From: Siniperca chuatsi
Lineage: Eukaryota > Chordata > Actinopteri > Centrarchiformes > Sinipercidae
NCBI RefSeq assembly: GCF_020085105.1
Contig: NC_058055.1
Span: 16,749,822 to 16,813,821 of the forward strand
DNA: 64,000 nt
Direction of reading: 5' to 3'
Both the position numbers and the translations under genes were made by a program. The notes under the pieces were generated by a model. The model was given only the letters and a program-made list of their open reading frames with translations. It ran no database searches and was not told the DNA's origin. Positions 33,972 to 60,797 of this stretch are shown here, piece by piece. The stretch's first letter is position 1. Every line of letters starts with the position of its first letter.

Positions 33972-36506
33972 CTAAAGCAGTCCAACAACATCAACATCAT
34001 CCTCACATTTACACTCCACTTTGTTGTTGGCCGAAAACTGCTGACTGTTGACAATATCTGGCTGCTCAAGGCTCTCTGATGTTGTGGTAGAGCCAATGAG
34101 GACTTCACGACTAACATCAGCTGGATGATGCTCCTGCTGCATGATTTCTCTGGCGAGGGCGACCAGAGCGGTCTCGTACCTCTGCAGGTGAGTGTTGTGG
34201 TAATTCCTCACTTCATCCATGGAGCTGCTGGCGTTTTGGTATCTGTATAAAACCCTGATGTAAGCACACAGCAAGTCAATTAGAAAATGCTCCATTGAAC
34301 ACTTGTGTCCTGAAACCAAATCACTCTCTGCTTGCTGCTGCTGAAAAGAAATCTAACGGAAACTGTGTTTTTGCTTTTCTGCGCAATACTGTGGGTTGAT
34401 AGTTAAAAAGCCAATTGAAATTCAATCAAAATGAATATTAGCTATAATTTATCAGTTGTTAGAATCAGTTCATAACACGGGCAGTGGAGAGAGCATTGTA
34501 GCAAATAAACCAGCTCTTACATGTTGGTTAGCTGAAATATTTCATTGAAGATGCCTAACCTTGAAGAGTTGATCTGGACCCTGGAGTAGAGGCCCATTGG
34601 ATGATATGGGCTAAAAGATGGGCAGGGATAGAAGCCCACTGTGTAGGGGGTCATGGCGGGACATGGGTAAATGCTGGGGGCCAGCAACTTGGACTGAGCT
34701 GGAGGCATGGCCTGTGAGACAAAGACGGAAACGCCAGGGTCCTGCCCTGCTCCCTGCCCTGCTCCCTGTCCTGCTCCCTGCCCTGCTCCCTGCCCTGCTC
34801 CCTGCCCTGCTCCCTGCCCTGCTCCCTGCCCTGAGGGCAAACACACTCTACCTTTCTTTTTCTGGGGGCGATACTCATAATCTGGCAAGATATAACAGAG
34901 CAGAGACCCAGGATAAGTGAAAGTCAGAAGTTCACCATCAATACCAGAACAGATTTCAAACTGAAAATATATCCTACTATATATCTGCATACAAAAGATG
35001 GCAGTAACCTTGCAGTATTCATAATCCTCTAGTCACTATATCAGCTGCTGCCATTTAGCTGTGTAATTGTCCATACCAGGGAATTGCTGCTTATGCATGT
35101 GTTTCAGTTTGTGAGCCACTTCATAGTAAGGCCTCTTCTGTTCCTCACTGAGCTTGGACCACTCACAGCCCAGCTGAATACTGGTGTCTATCATGTTAGC
35201 TCCGGGGTAGGCTTTGCGCAGGGCATATCGGTGGATGTGAGACCATACCATAAAGGCATTCATCGGCCGTTTAATGTATCCATTCTTGTCTTGGCTAGAC
35301 TGCATCTGCTTCAGATCTGAGGGAGACATTTTGGGGACTGATTACTTTGCTTCCAGTTGTAGGAAAAACCCCCAACAACATTCAAAATAACACAGGTAAG
35401 GTATAAGTATGTTAGTACATTATTGATCATTTAGACAAAGATTCCCTTAGAAATCTATAAGACAACAAACACATTTTACAGCAAAAATAAATGGATAGAC
35501 AAACAACTAATGACAAAATGCCCATAAATACTGTCCATTATTTTCCCTTTTGTTCATAAATACATTTTGGAGTTCTATATATGTGAAGTGAAGCTCACAT
35601 ATAGTAAATATAGTAAATGCTGATTGCTAGACACTAATCACAGATTGGAGGAAACCAATTTCCACCAGGAAAAGAAAAACAGATGAAATATTAGAGATGA
35701 CAAAATTAAAAATACTCATATTATGTCAAACTTATGATATACTTAGTCAAAGAAGTCAGAATTCTGAATGGATATATTTTAATGTTGACTTACTATATCA
35801 AAATGATTGACACAGAAAGTAAAAATGTATCTCATAATTTTGATTTTCAAAGAATATATATATATATATATATTATCAATCATCTTTATTTCCCTGCTTC
35901 CATACACACCCCACGGATCATCACACACAGCCCCTATAGGGATACTGTACCTTCCTCCGTTGGCGGGATGGTAAAGCAGGTGACTGGACTGTCACCTCCG
36001 AGTCTGGGTGACTTTGGGGTCAGGGGGACAGGATCTGGATTCAGGGGTTCTCTAGCTGCAATGGCCTGTGGCGTATCCAGCCTCTCAGTAAACCGGAGCG
36101 GGACAATTTGTTCACCAGGTGGAGGCAGCTCCACTGCACTGAGCTGGGAACCTGCTGCCGCTGGACATGAACCTGAAGGGACAGTTTCTGGCCGGACCCC
36201 GCCATCACCACCGCTACTTCTCACCTTCGCTGACACGCCATGGTAAAGTGGTAGTTTGTTAAAAAGGGTCGATATGGGTGGTAGCTTTCCGTCTTCAAAT
36301 TGATAACTTGCTCCAACCGAGGCAACGTAGTTTTCCCAAGTCTTTGACCCATTTCCGGACCAGTCCAGAGGCTGAACCTGATCCGCCTCTCCGGTTTGGA
36401 AGAACTGAGAGGCGGGCCTCGCTGGGTCCTGGTCTTGGCCCGTGTGTCTGGTTGGAGCCGGACTCCTTTCACGTTTTCTTTCTTGAGGGTGCCTGTCCAT
36501 TGTCAC
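33972..36506 (-). CDS. sox30: SOX30-type HMG-box transcription factor; 4 exons, about 466 aa
   Basis: Exons: 36506-35951, 35316-35077, 34881-34560 (or 34521) and 34254-33972 (stop). Phases are consistent. Exon 1 encodes a disordered Pro/Ser/Arg-rich N-terminus with [20 protein letters not shown]. Exon 2 holds most of the HMG box (about residues 198-266): [16 protein letters not shown], then [19 protein letters not shown]. It continues into exon 3 with [18 protein letters not shown] boxes bind the DNA minor groove at AACAAT-type sites and bend DNA. The [10 protein letters not shown] variant and the neighbour clint1 (human SOX30 and CLINT1 are both at 5q33) point to SOX30, a regulator of male germ-cell development in mammals. 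Exon 3 carries a 12-bp minisatellite encoding GAGQ repeats. The protein is shorter than the human one (about 750 aa). ATG 36506 is used; a second in-frame ATG is at 36500. Two in-phase donors end exon 3. Confidence 0.85.
34741..34833 (-). repeat. 12-bp coding minisatellite (GAGQ repeats) in sox30 exon 3
   Basis: The plus-strand unit CCCTGCCCTGCT repeats about 7.5 times with one internal base change (CCCTGTCCTGCT). In the sox30 frame it encodes seven GAGQ units between SGQ and DPG. All three minus-strand frames stay open across it. Confidence 0.93.
35854..35873. repeat. Short (AT)n in sox30 intron 1
   Basis: Ten AT units, 80 nt downstream of the exon 1 donor in the transcript. Confidence 0.9.
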
Positions 36507-54605: not shown

Positions 54606-56042
54606 CCAGCTTCATGTGCTGTGGGACACAGACAGACTTATTATTACAAATACACACTCCCTTTGGATGCACTCATGGAAACTGCAAATTAAATGCCAGT
54701 TTGTTTGTATAATGCCACTGTTATTTTTTCTGACAAAAAGTGAATTATTTTCCATATACTAAATGCTGACTGGATTTTTTTGGGAGGGGATTATCACAGC
54801 CTGGGACATGTCAATGATTAGCAACAACATTGATTTTTATGCATTATTATTTTTTGTGCAGTGTCAGATAAAAAAAAAAACCTCCCTCTGGTGTTGTTAG
54901 TGGACAAAAATGTCTGCGTTAAAAAACTGCCTAAAATTATTATCTATTAATATCATTTTCCACTTTCACTGAGTTAACTTTTTCAGTCCCGATCATAACT
55001 ATTAAATATTCATTCATTTTCAGGAATTAATATCCTATTACCTTATTTTGTTCTAGAAATAAAACAAAAACACAAGTTTACCTTGAACAAGAACAAGATT
55101 TATTTGCCAAAATTCAAGAACATTCCAAACAGAAATAGTATGTGTGTGTCCTTATGCTCACTTTCAGACTGCATGACTGCATCCAAAGCTTCTCACAATG
55201 TCAAAGATCTTTTCTCCATCTTGCCAGGTATGAAATGACTACCAGGTATGAAATGACTCAGCATACTGTAACTCAAATACAGAAATTTACTACACCTATT
55301 AGGTTTCATTTATTATATTCTATTGTGTATGAAGGATTGCGAGTGCATGTGTGTGCGTGTATGAATGTGTGTCTATGTGAGTTGGTGGCTGGGTGGTGGT
55401 GTGTGCATGTGTGTGAGAGAGACAGAGATGGAGAGAGAGAGGGAGGGAGGAATTGTAACTGCTGTACAATATAATTTCTATTTTTTGGACTTTATTGGTT
55501 CCATTATACAGCAATAGTGCCCCTACAGGAAACCAGGAAAATAGCATGCATTTTGCCTATATACCAAACATAGGAAAATGGCTTCATCTGGTGGAAAATA
55601 GTAAAAACAAATTTGAAGCCAAGACTCCTTGCCTGACATAAGCCTGACATAATGGTATGCATGATTTTATGCTATAATGGCCATGGGATCAAAAATTGCA
55701 GTGTTAATGGGTTTCAATGGGGACATTTTTGTCCTGAACAGCACCAGAGGGAATATTTTGTGTACAGAGTGTATTATAGACTTATTATGGGATGTGAGGT
55801 TGAAATTTCAAAATTCAAACAAAAACTCACATTCTTGCCATTTGTATAGAGAAATTAAAATATTCTATATTATAACATTGTTAAAAAAGACCTAAAGTGA
55901 TTATATCATATAAGCCACGTTGGGGCGATACTTGTGTAACCTGCAGTGGTGCTTTTTGTACTTTTTCAAGCAGAAAGCATACAGTCTGTGGTATAAGGTG
56001 AAAAGGTGGAAGTCTGGCCATGTCACGACAACGAGAACACTG

Positions 56043-56110
56043 TGACGTCATCACGTTCTGAACCCTGCAGTTATGACGTCATGCAGAATGTTCAACAGAA
56101 TGTTCTGTTG
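56043..56110 (+). promoter_or_regulatory. Twin CRE sites and an 18-bp palindrome upstream of the coiled-coil gene
   Basis: Two perfect TGACGTCA octamers lie at 56043-56050 and 56074-56081 (31 bp apart, about three helical turns). The palindrome CAACAGAATGTTCTGTTG follows at 56093-56110; its GAATGTTC halves resemble heat-shock or steroid-receptor half-sites. The cluster is about 215-280 bp before the ATG, fitting a core promoter. Binding by CREB/CREM/ATF is inferred from the motif only. Confidence 0.6.
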
Positions 56111-56324
56111 GGTTAAAACCTCCTGACAAAACTCCAGTTAGTTACAACCTGACCTCCAACAGAGAAACATCTCTCAGTGGAAACAGAGTGACAACTACCG
56201 AAAGTAGAACACTACTACAACCAAACACGACAATACAGCAAGAATACAACTACCAAAAGTGCACTAGAACTACAAGCAAAACTATAACACTACAACACCG
56301 CTACAGTATCTGTGTTCAGCCAAC

Positions 56325-58574
56325 ATGGAGAAAAGCGACAACTCAAGAGACGAGGTAAGACTTTCTAAACAGGAGAGTTTAACGCTTATTTAGGACAGCC
56401 TAGTTTTTATTTTATTTCTTCATTTTTTGAAGCTTCAACAAATACAATCATTATAAATAAGAGAGGGGATGAATTGTCAATACTGCCCTCCCACATTGGT
56501 AGCCTGATATTCAGACATCTTTACCCCTTATTATATTATTACATTATATCATATTAGAGAGATGTGGGAAGCAATTCAGAGGTCTGGAATCAGGCTACCA
56601 CAATGGATGGCTAATGAGCTGATTGAGTTATTTTACATTTTGTTTTTCATTTCCACAATAGTTTCTAATTTACATGAACTTGTTGTACTGAGACATCTGA
56701 ACTGTACAATGTTAAAATGTTTTTAGTGCTTTGAGTTTTACAACATGACTGCTGTAATGTGTTTACTAAGAGTCAGGGACACAAGGTGAAACAGACTTTG
56801 CGTTGCTGTAGTTTACATGACATGAGTTTTTGTGGATATGATGCAGTTGGCTTGAGGATACTTCCATTTGATATTAAGTGACTGTATTTAAGTGAAATAT
56901 GGAAACACAATTTCACTGAAATACCATCACTCAATAGTAAACTGAGAATTTGACTGTTTTGGCTGAAGCAATTGAGGGACATTTCACTTTGCTGGTAGTG
57001 ATGCAGGGCTCTTTTACAACGGATGTAAATGGCTACATTTCATTCAAATGTGTGAAAAACTAAAGATGAAAGACCCCCTCTCTTTCTGTGTGTATCCAAA
57101 GTTAAGATGGGACAGTACTTTTACCTATTGCCTGTATACTTGCGTCTTTCAGTGCTCACAGTGTACTCCCAGCAGAACCCTGCACGCCTTGCGACAAGCC
57201 CTTCTGGACTCCAAAGCAGAAAACAAGCAGCAGGCTGCAGAAAATGCTGCTCTGAGGGAGCAGATAGCCAGCAAGGAGCTCAGCTGTGAGCAAGAAAAAA
57301 AGAAGCTCCTGGATGAAAGGGACAGTTTAGTGTCAACTCTGTTCATGGCCAAAAATGACATGGATGACCTGGTGAAGGCTTTAGAGTCCATAAGAGCCAG
57401 TCAAAAACAGTTTTACACTCAGCGCACTCATTTGGAAAGACAAATGAAAAAAAACGAAGAAGAAGTCCGCTCCTTGAAGGAAAGTCTGCGCTGCCAGCAG
57501 ATGGAGACCGAGGAGGTCAAAAAATCCTGGAAGGCAGAGTGCGACAAGTTCAATGAGATGAAACTTTCCTTTGACAAAACTGTGATACAGATCAATGCAG
57601 ACTGGGAAAGCCGGTGGATTATTAGACAGGAGGAGGTAGCCGCGGAGCTGAAAACTCTGCAGCAGGACTGTGAGAAGAAGGCGAGCCAGGTCATCCAGGA
57701 CAAGGATGATGTGATCACCAGTGTCAGAAAGGAAATGATGGCACTAGTAGAGGGAAATCTGGCCAAGCTGAGAACAGTACAAATGGAGATCCACCAGAGC
57801 GAGACAGAGTGGCAAACAAAACACAAAGCTCTGGAGGATCATCTCAGGTGTGAGCTGGCAGCAAAGGAGGAGAGCTTTAAGAAAACACAGGAGCTGCAGA
57901 AAGACAGCAGAGAGATGGAGGAGAAGTGGCTCGCCAGGGAAGAGGAGTGGCTCAACAAGGAAGAGGAGTGGCTCGCCAAGGAAGAGGAGTGTCTCAACAA
58001 GGAAGAGAAGTGGCTCGCCAAGGAAGAGGAGTGGCTCAACAAGGCGAGCAAGATGGAGGAGGAGATGAAGCTCCTGATCCAGCAAAATGTTGAACTTCAG
58101 GTACGCCAGTCAGTTGATCATTTTGACTGGAATAATAACTTGTTAGATTCTAACAGTTTGTTTCAGATTTAGTCTGTGGAAGAGAAAATACTGAATTATA
58201 TGCTGTCTCTGTCTTTTCAGGAGCTCGCCTCAAAAACTGACAAAGAGAAGGCGAAGATGAAAAAGGAGGAAAAGAAGGCAACAAAGGAGACAGAAAAGAG
58301 ACTGAAGAGGGAGAGAAAAGAGGAGGAGGAGAGAGAGAAGAAAGAGAAAGAAGCAAATGAGAAGAAGGAAAAGGAGCGATTGAAGAGAGAAAAGAAAGAA
58401 AAGGAAGAGAGAGAGAAGAAAGCGAAGAAGGAGAGGAAGGAGAGAGAGAAGAGAGAGAAGAAAGAGAAAGAAGCAAATGAGAAGAAGGAAAAGGAGCGAT
58501 TGAACAGAGAAAAGAAAGAAAAGGAGGAGAGAGAAAAGAAAGCGAAGAAGGAGAGGAAAGAGATCGAGAAGTGA
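56325..58574 (+). CDS. Unrecognised coiled-coil / charged single-helix protein; 3 exons, 443 aa
   Basis: Exons: 56325-56354 (MEKSDNSRDE), 57153-58100 and 58221-58574 (stop TGA). Every junction is GT-AG and phase 0. The ATG has a good context (CAACATGG) and follows a 5' UTR behind two CRE sites. Residues 11-326 form a long heptad-rich coiled coil, starting CSQCTPSRTLHALRQ, with LREQIASKEL and RWIIRQEEVAAELKTLQQD. Residues 267-308 are six 7-residue units of the type EEEWLNK / EEEWLAK. Exon 3 is almost only Glu, Lys, Arg, Asn and Ala, so it resembles a single-alpha-helix domain, and it contains a 40-residue direct duplication running to the stop. There is no signal peptide, membrane segment or enzyme motif. 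I do not recognise the family. The repeats invite spurious matches to trichohyalin or golgin-like proteins. A structural or cytoskeletal role is only a guess. A poly(A) signal (AATAAA) lies near 58948. Confidence 0.75.
57921..58044 (+). repeat. 21-bp coding repeat array (six heptads) in the coiled-coil gene
   Basis: Units of the type GAAGAGGAGTGGCTCAACAA encode EEEWLNK or EEEWLAK, alternating N and A. This suggests a 42-bp higher-order unit. One unit has Cys in place of Trp (EEECLNK). Confidence 0.92.
58332..58571 (+). repeat. 120-bp tandem duplication in the last exon of the coiled-coil gene
   Basis: Units 58332-58451 and 58452-58571 are nearly identical, including KEANEKKEKERL in both. Visible changes include LKR to LNR and KERE to KEIE. 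The second unit ends exactly at the stop codon. Confidence 0.93.
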
Positions 58575-58846
58575 GAGGAGTAACATAATTTTCTCCCTTC
58601 CTAACCCCCTCACCTCTTTCTCCCTTTCACCCCTACCCTCTCAACATGCCTACTCCTCCTACCCTCTTACCCCCCATCTCCCCATCCAGCTTTCCCCCCT
58701 CCCATTCTTCCTCTCCTTCCTCACCCTCCACCCCCTCAACCCTCCTATCACCCCACCCTCTTACCCCTTTACCCCCTCCTCTTACCCTCCACTCCCAGAC
58801 TTCCCTCCTCCCATCATCCTCTCCCACCTTCTCTGTCCTCTTCCAG

Positions 58847-58940
58847 GGCAGCTCAGTGATCAGCACTGCAGCCTCACAGAAACAAGCTGCTGGTTTCCAT
58901 CTGGGCCGGCTTCTTCTTCTTGTGTGGAGTTTACGTTATC
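58847..58940 (+). repeat. SINE-like fragment in the 3' UTR of the coiled-coil gene
   Basis: GGCAGCTCAGTGATCAGCAC, GCCTCACAGAAACAAGCTGC and TGTGTGGAGTTTACGTT follow in the order of a very common fish tRNA-related repeat (GTGG..AGTGGTTAGCACTG..GCCTCACAGCAAGAAGG..GTGTGGAGTTTGCATGTT). It is just before the AATAAA at about 58948, so it may form part of the mRNA end. Confidence 0.6.
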
Positions 58941-59218
58941 GCACTTTAAATAAAAACAGAAATGTAAAAATAATTAAATTATATCTGTATATCTGAATAT
59001 AGTCTTCATATACCCTGCTAAAAAACTTGACAGCAAATGTTTAATTTACCTTATTTGACTTATTTGACATCTTTAAAGATGACCCTTCATTTTCACCTCA
59101 ATATGATATGAAGTAATTTTTGGAGTCTCTATGTTTTACTACAGATGATACATTTCATACAGCTGGAAATACTACCCCCCAGTGAAAAAAGTGAAATACT
59201 GCAAAAAATCCTGCAAGG

Positions 59219-59865
59219 CAGAGTGGTGGAAAGTAACTAAGAACATATACTCAAGTACTGTACTTAAGTACAATTTTGAGGTACTTGTACTTTACTTGAG
59301 TATTTACATTTTCTGCTACTTTATACTTCTATACTACTAAGTTTATTGTACATTTGACTCCATTACGTACTTTTCAGTGGGAGGATGGGCTTGAAGAATT
59401 ATGTACTTGAATCAGATCTTGAGTGAAGATTGGAGATTTCATTCAAATTTTAACTTTTATTCCAAATAACGGTTGGTATACATGAACCTGAATGATGAAA
59501 ACACTATTTTATTGAACAAACCTCCAACACTAGAAAACACTCAGGAGTACTCCTCCAATTTTGTTATTTTTACAACAGAAAATATTAAGATTTGCTTTTT
59601 TTCTACATCTGGATCTACATCAAGATACTGAATTTTTTTAATTTCAAGTGAGTCAGACTCATTAAACCACTGAGTTATGGCCATGTAAATGACTCCTGCT
59701 GCTGCAAGTAGATGCGTGCAGCAAAATTGGTCTCTAATTTAATGTTGTTTTTCAATGCCTATAAAAGTTCTTGCTTTTCTTGTATTCATTGTTTTACAAC
59801 ATTGAATCAATGTGGCTGTTTTACACTGATCAACAGAAAAGATCAGGATACTTCATCCACCACTG
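59219..59865. mobile_element. MITE with CAGTGGTGGA inverted ends (copy 1)
   Basis: The left end CAGAGTGGTGGAAAGTAACTA is followed by ACTCAAGTACTGTACTTAAG. The right end reads GATACTTCATCCACCACTG. This is a common teleost miniature element with TACTT/AAGTA-rich arms. About 650 bp, noncoding. No target duplication was recognised. Confidence 0.75.
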
Positions 59866-60343: not shown

Positions 60344-60797
60344 CAGTGGTGGAAAGCAATTGCAATTTTGAGGTAGTTGTACTTTACTTGAGTAAATGTT
60401 TTACTACACTACATTTATTTGATAACTTAAGTGAATACTTTGCAGATTCAGATTATTAATACAAAATATGATGAAAAAATAAATGTATTATAATACATTA
60501 AACTACCCAGCAGTATATAAAGTTAAAATTGGCTTTACAGCTGCAACATTAAAGTGATGCTTAAATAATTATAATCTAATTACATAATAGATATTATTCT
60601 GAAATGCATCATTCTGCATGATGGGTACTTTTGGTACTTGAAGTATATTTTGATGCTAATTCTTAGTTACTTTTACTTAAGTAAAAGTTTGAATGCAAGA
60701 CTTCTTGTAACATTATTTCTACACTGTGGTATTGCTACTTTTATTGTTAGATTTACACTTAATTATAGACTTGATTAGAGTACCTCTTCCACCACTG
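60344..60797. mobile_element. MITE with CAGTGGTGGAA inverted ends (copy 2)
   Basis: The left end CAGTGGTGGAAAGCAATTGC and right end ACCTCTTCCACCACTG enclose TGTACTTTACTTGAGTAAAT and CTTTTACTTAAGTAAAAG. It is the same family as the copy 500 bp to the left. 454 bp, noncoding. Confidence 0.82.

Follow-up and report, generated by a model that had tools for sequence, protein, structure and literature searches.

A probable, unplaced three-exon coiled-coil gene with a highly charged tail and its dispersed relatives in the genome of Siniperca chuatsi

Gene structure, coiled-coil core and charged tail

The stretch of DNA analysed here (the window) covers 64 kb of contig 14 of Siniperca chuatsi (C14:16749822-16813821), and the genome searched for relatives comprises 719 Mb. 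The window gene is called W, two nearby copies on the same contig are B and C, and all other members are named after their contigs (C2, C3, C12a-c and C20a-h). W lies on the forward strand. Its first exon (56325..56354) has 30 nt, encodes MEKSDNSRDE and ends in phase 0; it is likewise 30 nt long in the models of C2 and C3. Exon 2 (57153..58100) encodes 316 residues, which comprise the coiled-coil core and a tandem array referred to as repeat slot 1, and exon 3 (58221..58574) encodes a 117-residue Glu/Lys/Arg tail, repeat slot 2, ending with the TGA stop codon at 58572-58574. Splicing and translation reproduced exactly the three phase-0 exons, GT-AG sites and 443 residues given in the initial annotation. 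For every member of the family, the exon ends and start codons are models derived from sequence.

Whatever the frame, DNA made up of purines alone can encode no residues other than Lys, Glu, Arg and Gly. Across exon 3 three reverse frames are open as well, and the openness of this exon alone is therefore little proof of a gene. Both points would suit the explanation that a purine-rich microsatellite with chance open frames mimics a gene, but we regard this as highly improbable, because the same three-exon model also fits two diverged paralogues, C2 (364 aa) and C3 (248 aa), which are 38% and 31% identical to W over exon 2, and because the core alignment with C2 beats heptad-preserving shuffles (z = 16.4). 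The indels that keep the frame, described below, speak against it too. Furthermore, the heptad signal of residues 11-260 is matched by none of 2000 shuffles, and copy B, located 122 kb from W, stays open throughout despite a coding sequence that is 6 nt longer (1338 vs. 1332 nt, two in-frame changes), which also places W beyond chance. The proposal of a three-exon coiled-coil gene is thus supported by the layout of two paralogues and by the heptad signal in the core. W is likely a real fish gene without a family name, with a predicted rod-shaped product that carries a highly charged tail.

The 3.5-residue hydrophobic periodicity by which coiled coils are recognised is present in residues 11-260, where the power at 3.5 is 1.65 vs. 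0.19 in shuffled sequences and the best period is 3.50. The best a-position equals 2 mod 7 in nine of 12 overlapping windows of the protein, three of which tie with another register; the nine include four windows running from residue 207 through the array to residue 332. The register is broken over about residues 151-206. The six heptads EE(E/K)WL(N/A)K reported earlier were found as a tandem repeat at 57917..58044 on the forward strand, with a period of 21/42 bp.

The tail contains 96 Glu, Lys and Arg among its 117 residues (82%) and has a net charge of +17. The remainder consists of 7 Ala, 4 Leu, 3 Thr, 3 Asn and one each of Ser, Asp, Met and Ile, with no Phe, Trp or Tyr; the length stated in the initial annotation holds, and its description as almost only Glu, Lys and Arg is slightly too strong. 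A 120-bp unit is repeated 2.4 times at 58287-58577 (forward strand). The composition had been likened to that of single alpha-helix (SAH) spacers. Richness in Glu, Lys and Arg, one mark of such helices, is seen at 82% over the 117 residues, and so is the absence of a hydrophobic seam (power at 3.5 of 0.06 vs. 0.05 shuffled, p 0.30). The order of charges is only slightly above that of shuffled tails by home-made scores (not Waggawagga): E to K/R pairs at i+4 number 27 vs. 18.5, a value reached by four of 2000 shuffles, attraction minus repulsion amounts to 9 (reached by 309/2000), and the charge-pair density is 0.43 of that of EEEEKKK vs. 0.39 shuffled (reached by 122/1000). Hence composition and seam agree with the SAH reading and charge order lends it little, and a single alpha-helix is compatible with the tail but unproven. 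As characterised in excerpts of work on the SAH (ER/K) domains of myosins and caldesmon (PMC5812594, PMC5347031, PMC5378345, PMC4183817), the likeness is one of composition, namely Glu/Lys/Arg richness over approximately 100 residues with no hydrophobic seam, and the tail of W differs in that it is terminal rather than placed between two domains and in its charge order.

Flanking elements and neighbouring genes

Two full CRE palindromes (TGACGTCA) are located at 56043-56050 and 56074-56081 on the forward strand, 282 and 251 nt 5' of the ATG, and may be promoter elements; the window has three such palindromes vs. 0.52 expected. Related forms occur in C2 (TGATGTCA at -177) and in C12a (TAACGTCA at -774). 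Neither C3 nor any of the seven C20 copies examined has one of the forms sought within 1100 nt, and conservation of these elements is therefore weak. A CRE promoter as a feature of the family was accordingly dropped.

Directly 5' of the ATG of W is a G-poor leader rich in CTAC and CAA (56155..56324, forward strand, start approximate). Its last 150 nt contain 14% G, and the corresponding values in ten other members examined range from 9 to 19%. C12a and C20a, b, c, e, f and h, but not C2, C3 or C20g, have a leader that has grown into a CTAC minisatellite. Several of these CTAC-rich leaders have open Tyr/Thr-rich frames that enter the gene.

The probable 3' UTR of W (58575..58954, forward strand) has a C-rich tract, a piece resembling a dispersed repeat at about 58847-58935, which we take to be a common fish repeat, and AATAAA at 58949-58954. 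Near window position 58935, copies B and C hold approximately 80 bp that are absent from W, just 5' of the shared AATAAA; this extra stretch too seems to us to resemble a common fish repeat. A fourth exon at 58847-58949 encoding a hydrophobic tail anchor was considered, given a donor-like GAA/GTGAGA at 58570, a pyrimidine-rich acceptor before 58847 and a frame that, read by hand, ends with approximately 20 mostly hydrophobic residues. By the same reading, however, the strongest-looking acceptor allows just three residues before a stop codon, and an acceptor before 58880 is required to reach the hydrophobic frame. A stretch similar to the repeat piece also lies 3' of the intronless C12a and C12b, within an apparent common repeat, and the exon, scarcely credible, was rejected.

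Upstream of W, a domain scan of seven stretches, six of which gave matches, identified minus-strand genes with prenylcysteine lyase, WW and FF, HMG box and ENTH domains. These neighbours are presumably PCYOX1L, TCERG1, SOX30 and CLINT1; synteny with them gave no name for W. Beside the SOX-type HMG exon, in an open minus-strand frame, there is a near-perfect 12-bp tandem repeat of 7.8 copies (34741-34833).

Members of the family and their relationships

The census, for which the W core, exon 2 of C2 and the C12a protein were used as queries, found at least 21 places at E up to 1e-3, together with a single short fragment, spread over seven contigs. These are distributed as two on C2, one on C3, one on C9, three (and the fragment) on C12, three on C14, one on C16 and ten on C20; the counts are lower bounds, and weaker matches on C4, C1 and C5 were left out of them. 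Described in the initial annotation as unplaced in any named family and possibly specific to a fish lineage, W has stayed without a family name and has to be seen as one of many members. Fifteen of the 21 places were modelled (W, B, C2, C3, C12a-c and C20a-h), copy C, C9, C16, C2:26.72 Mb, C20:18.27 Mb and C20:20.67 Mb being left out. A full reading from start to stop is present in 12 (W, B, C2, C3, C12a, C12c and C20a, b, c, e, f and h), and C12c uses the same start codon as C12a. The incomplete models are C20g, which is cut short at 226 residues, C12b, with a 2-nt difference beside the start, and C20d, which can be read only from inside. Six family members, five of them near-identical in the core, form a cluster at C20:1.13-2.56 Mb. 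The C3 member is on the strand opposite to the exons on either side, perhaps within an intron of that gene, which looks to us like a TRAK gene.

The model of C3 requires a GC donor in intron 2 and is without the end of the coil. In the relatives on contigs 12 and 20 both introns are absent and the exon 2/3 junction is continuous. The place of the donor GTAAGA of W, C2 and C3 is occupied by GTTAGATTTG in C12a-c and in C20a, b, c, e, f and g; C20h does not have it. In the members that have this stretch, a scar of intron 1 would thus appear to be translated. In a tree of 15 rows, 14 of them different, the intron-bearing and intronless members are split (100/100). C3, a long branch in this tree, may be falsely placed beside W.

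Homology beyond coiled-coil composition was assessed for 11 core pairs with shuffles that keep the heptad position, 300 per pair. In addition to the W-C2 pair, high z values were obtained for W-C3 (10.6), C2-C3 (9.6) and C12a-C20a (19.0), followed by C2-C12a (6.6), W-C20g (6.1), W-C20a (5.4) and C2-C20h (5.3); W-C12a (3.2), C2-C20a (2.6) and C3-C12a (1.5) are weak. The tails of C2 and C12a, which hold C-terminal modules (for example GFWSWARKKKSDS in C2 and GFFSWMHKKKCDS in C12a), align as well (z 6.8), and those of C2 and C20h give a z of 5.9. Modules of this type are absent from the tail of W, and in four pairs with other tails it showed no alignment beyond composition (z -0.5 to 1.3).

The tails are basic: the net charge is +17 in both W and C12a and lies between +13 and +34 in the C20 tails, of which seven were counted. 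This would agree with direct binding of nucleic acid or chromatin by the tail, in the manner of the CAF-1 KER helix, instead of a spacer function; such binding is proposed here by analogy and is, in our opinion, unlikely, and the basic-aromatic modules of C2 and C12 would suit membranes equally. The excerpted account of the CAF-1 KER (PMC10335832) presents it as a Lys/Glu/Arg-rich single helix linked to DNA selection. Compared by that description, the two stretches are alike in composition and in being proposed as one long helix, but the tail of W follows a long coiled coil and has recent tandem repeats.

The unit shared with copy C (C14:16673965-16677067, minus strand) extends over 55835..58936 of the window, is approximately 99% identical and ends with an abrupt drop of identity at 58936; the match to copy B (C14:16683367-16686432, minus strand), also approximately 99% identical, begins at 55863. 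B and C are 122-132 kb from W, and the flanks are only approximately 70-80% identical. From 5' to 3', W and B differ at 1/434 sites in the 5' flank, 3/796 in intron 1, 4/764 in exon 2 before the array, 1/184 from the array to the exon end, 0/120 in intron 2, 10/354 in exon 3 and 3/345 in the 3' UTR, and then at 59/214 and 31/167 in the 3' flank. The idea that the 3' flank is unrelated to the copies was rejected, as W remains colinear with B and C, at about 70% identity, over 58938-59609. A recent duplication by itself would not make identity drop abruptly inside homologous DNA, and gene conversion is therefore favoured, as the near-identity of W, B and C suggests; the edge of identity between W and B could also have arisen from a duplicate inserted beside an old homologous repeat. 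The block at 59223 is out of order in B and C, and as both it and the block at 60364 match other nearby places and may be dispersed repeats, they carry little weight. B and C form a recently duplicated pair of like orientation, with 99.3% identity over 4,021 bp. A 72-bp piece of the window (54615-54686) matches at 92% DNA that precedes the shared unit in copy C by approximately 60 bp; in the window, approximately 1.1 kb thus separates two pieces that are nearly adjacent in copy C.

Frameshifts (or a misassembly) affect copy C, and C9 and C16 hold broken copies, which indicates that the family makes dead copies. W might then be a recently dead or dying copy, with working members elsewhere, and the high dN/dS values given below would fit this as well. 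We find it quite unlikely, given that W and B are fully open and that changes of coding length keep the frame. Over the first 270 codons W and B differ by two synonymous and two non-synonymous changes, and four changes are too few to show constraint.

Repeat turnover, frame keeping and interpretation

In several clades the same two slots are filled by in-frame repeats that differ from clade to clade. In slot 1, where the coil ends, the unit is seven residues in W and B, 21 residues (63 bp) in C12a, C12b, C20g and C20h, and 11 residues (33 bp) in C20a-f, at the place that matches the array of W. In the tail (slot 2) it is 40 or 41 residues in W and B, 11 in C20a, b, c, e and f, 25/47 in C20h and 13 in C12a (2.3 copies). 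Arrays are not universal, as the tandem-repeat finder detected none in C2, C3 and C12c, and no slot-2 array in C12b, C20d and C20g. Weak alternative periods that are not multiples of 3 are 22 in W, 22 and 2 in B and 20 in C20g. Units of seven and 21 residues preserve the heptad register; a unit of 11 suits a hendecad, and the C20 slot-1 unit has Gly and little charge and may be neither helical nor part of a coil. Between C20a and C20c, 158 core codons are identical, while the arrays have 9.8 vs. 8.9 copies in slot 1 and 8.3 vs. 7.5 in slot 2. As the flanks of this pair differ by approximately 3% (17/580 and 19/626), repeats outrun point changes in the coding core and not necessarily in the neighbourhood, and the identical core points to either constraint or conversion. 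The fast repeat turnover suspected in the initial annotation is borne out, since clades differ in their arrays and near-identical cores go with different copy numbers.

In three near-identical pairs that share no copy, none of eight coding indels is off frame vs. 16 of 20 non-coding ones (Fisher p 1.6e-4), and in all six near-identical comparisons the counts are 1/16 in coding sequence vs. 39/49 in flanks. The sole off-frame coding indel is the 2-nt difference near the start of C12b. Indels in the C12a-C12b leader are unreliable because the leader aligns badly (43% of sites differ). The arrays account for some of the outcome of this phase test, since the coding repeat units (33 and 63 bp) are multiples of 3. 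Length changes in the C20 leaders, as compared with these coding units, are of 40 bp or multiples thereof, and coding units in multiples of 3 themselves point to selection on frame. The dN/dS ratio is 0.45-0.82 in pairs with dS of 0.28-0.61, which have branches in common and are not independent. C20b-C20e reaches 1.07 at a dS of 0.01, and C20a-C20e and C20c-C20e each have three non-synonymous and no synonymous changes; this pattern may reflect weak constraint.

Searches of Pfam and PDB gave only weak, coiled-coil-like matches, in line with the earlier failure to place W in a named family. In Pfam-A only AAA_27 passes its curated cut-off, with 22.5 vs. 22 bits for the 259-residue W core, and over the whole of exon 2 it falls below it (20.8 bits). 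Across the six members scanned, seven models were matched at E up to 0.01, none of them by more than one member. In PDB, the W core matched seven sequences at E up to 1, namely GINS subunit 4 (best, 0.033) and ribosomal mL38; a three-member profile gave no match, and a six-member profile gave six at E up to 0.1, the best being geminin (0.007). W could also be orthologous to a known vertebrate coiled-coil gene and have diverged too fast for recognition by profiles, which would agree with such marginal matches, including one that just passes, and is possible, if on the unlikely side; on the other hand, models that each occur in one member only form a pattern of compositional noise. Phages, plasmids, viral contigs and prokaryote genomes held no relative of the W core or the C12a protein in scans that detect close relatives only. 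In the open-licence PMC literature, no title or abstract start among the matches listed describes the family.

Taken together, we consider W to code for a protein and to belong to a gene family that is dispersed and evolves fast, with a probability of roughly 0.6. The members have a heptad core, in several cases with a tandem array at its end, and a basic Lys/Glu/Arg-rich tail, which is itself an array in several. The protein would form a coiled-coil rod as a dimer or trimer, whose length may be set in steps by slot 1, steps of seven and 21 residues keeping the heptad phase. The tail may be a stiff, charged and mostly helical extension that either acts as a spacer or anchors the rod to a charged surface (membrane, microtubule, RNA or chromatin). 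A structural scaffold seems to us the most likely role, perhaps in germ cells. New copies would arise by DNA duplication, one clade would have lost both introns, and nearby copies would be kept alike by gene conversion.

More speculatively, and improbably in our judgement, this might be a germ-line family in genomic conflict, in which the coil core stays constant, selection for ever-changing protein length and charge drives two hypervariable slots (one for rod length, the other for tail charge or length) that change even where the cores of two copies are identical, and local gene conversion spreads the winning versions. The resemblance to the rodent Slx/Slxl1/Sly (PMC7743899) and Laidx (PMC7263670) genes, as the excerpted reports present them, lies in their being multicopy, with local copies that are nearly identical.

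If the copies are expressed, they would make up a natural series in which one rod is lengthened by units of seven, 21 or 11 residues at one place and charged tails are built from different repeats. The family thereby offers a way to study the birth of coiled-coil length and of charged helical tails from tandem repeats, and a test case of whether repeat turnover is neutral or driven. Even if it were merely a duplicating family under weak constraint, it would still be an unplaced one. Annotation pipelines, we assume, would probably label its members trichohyalin-like or golgin-like.
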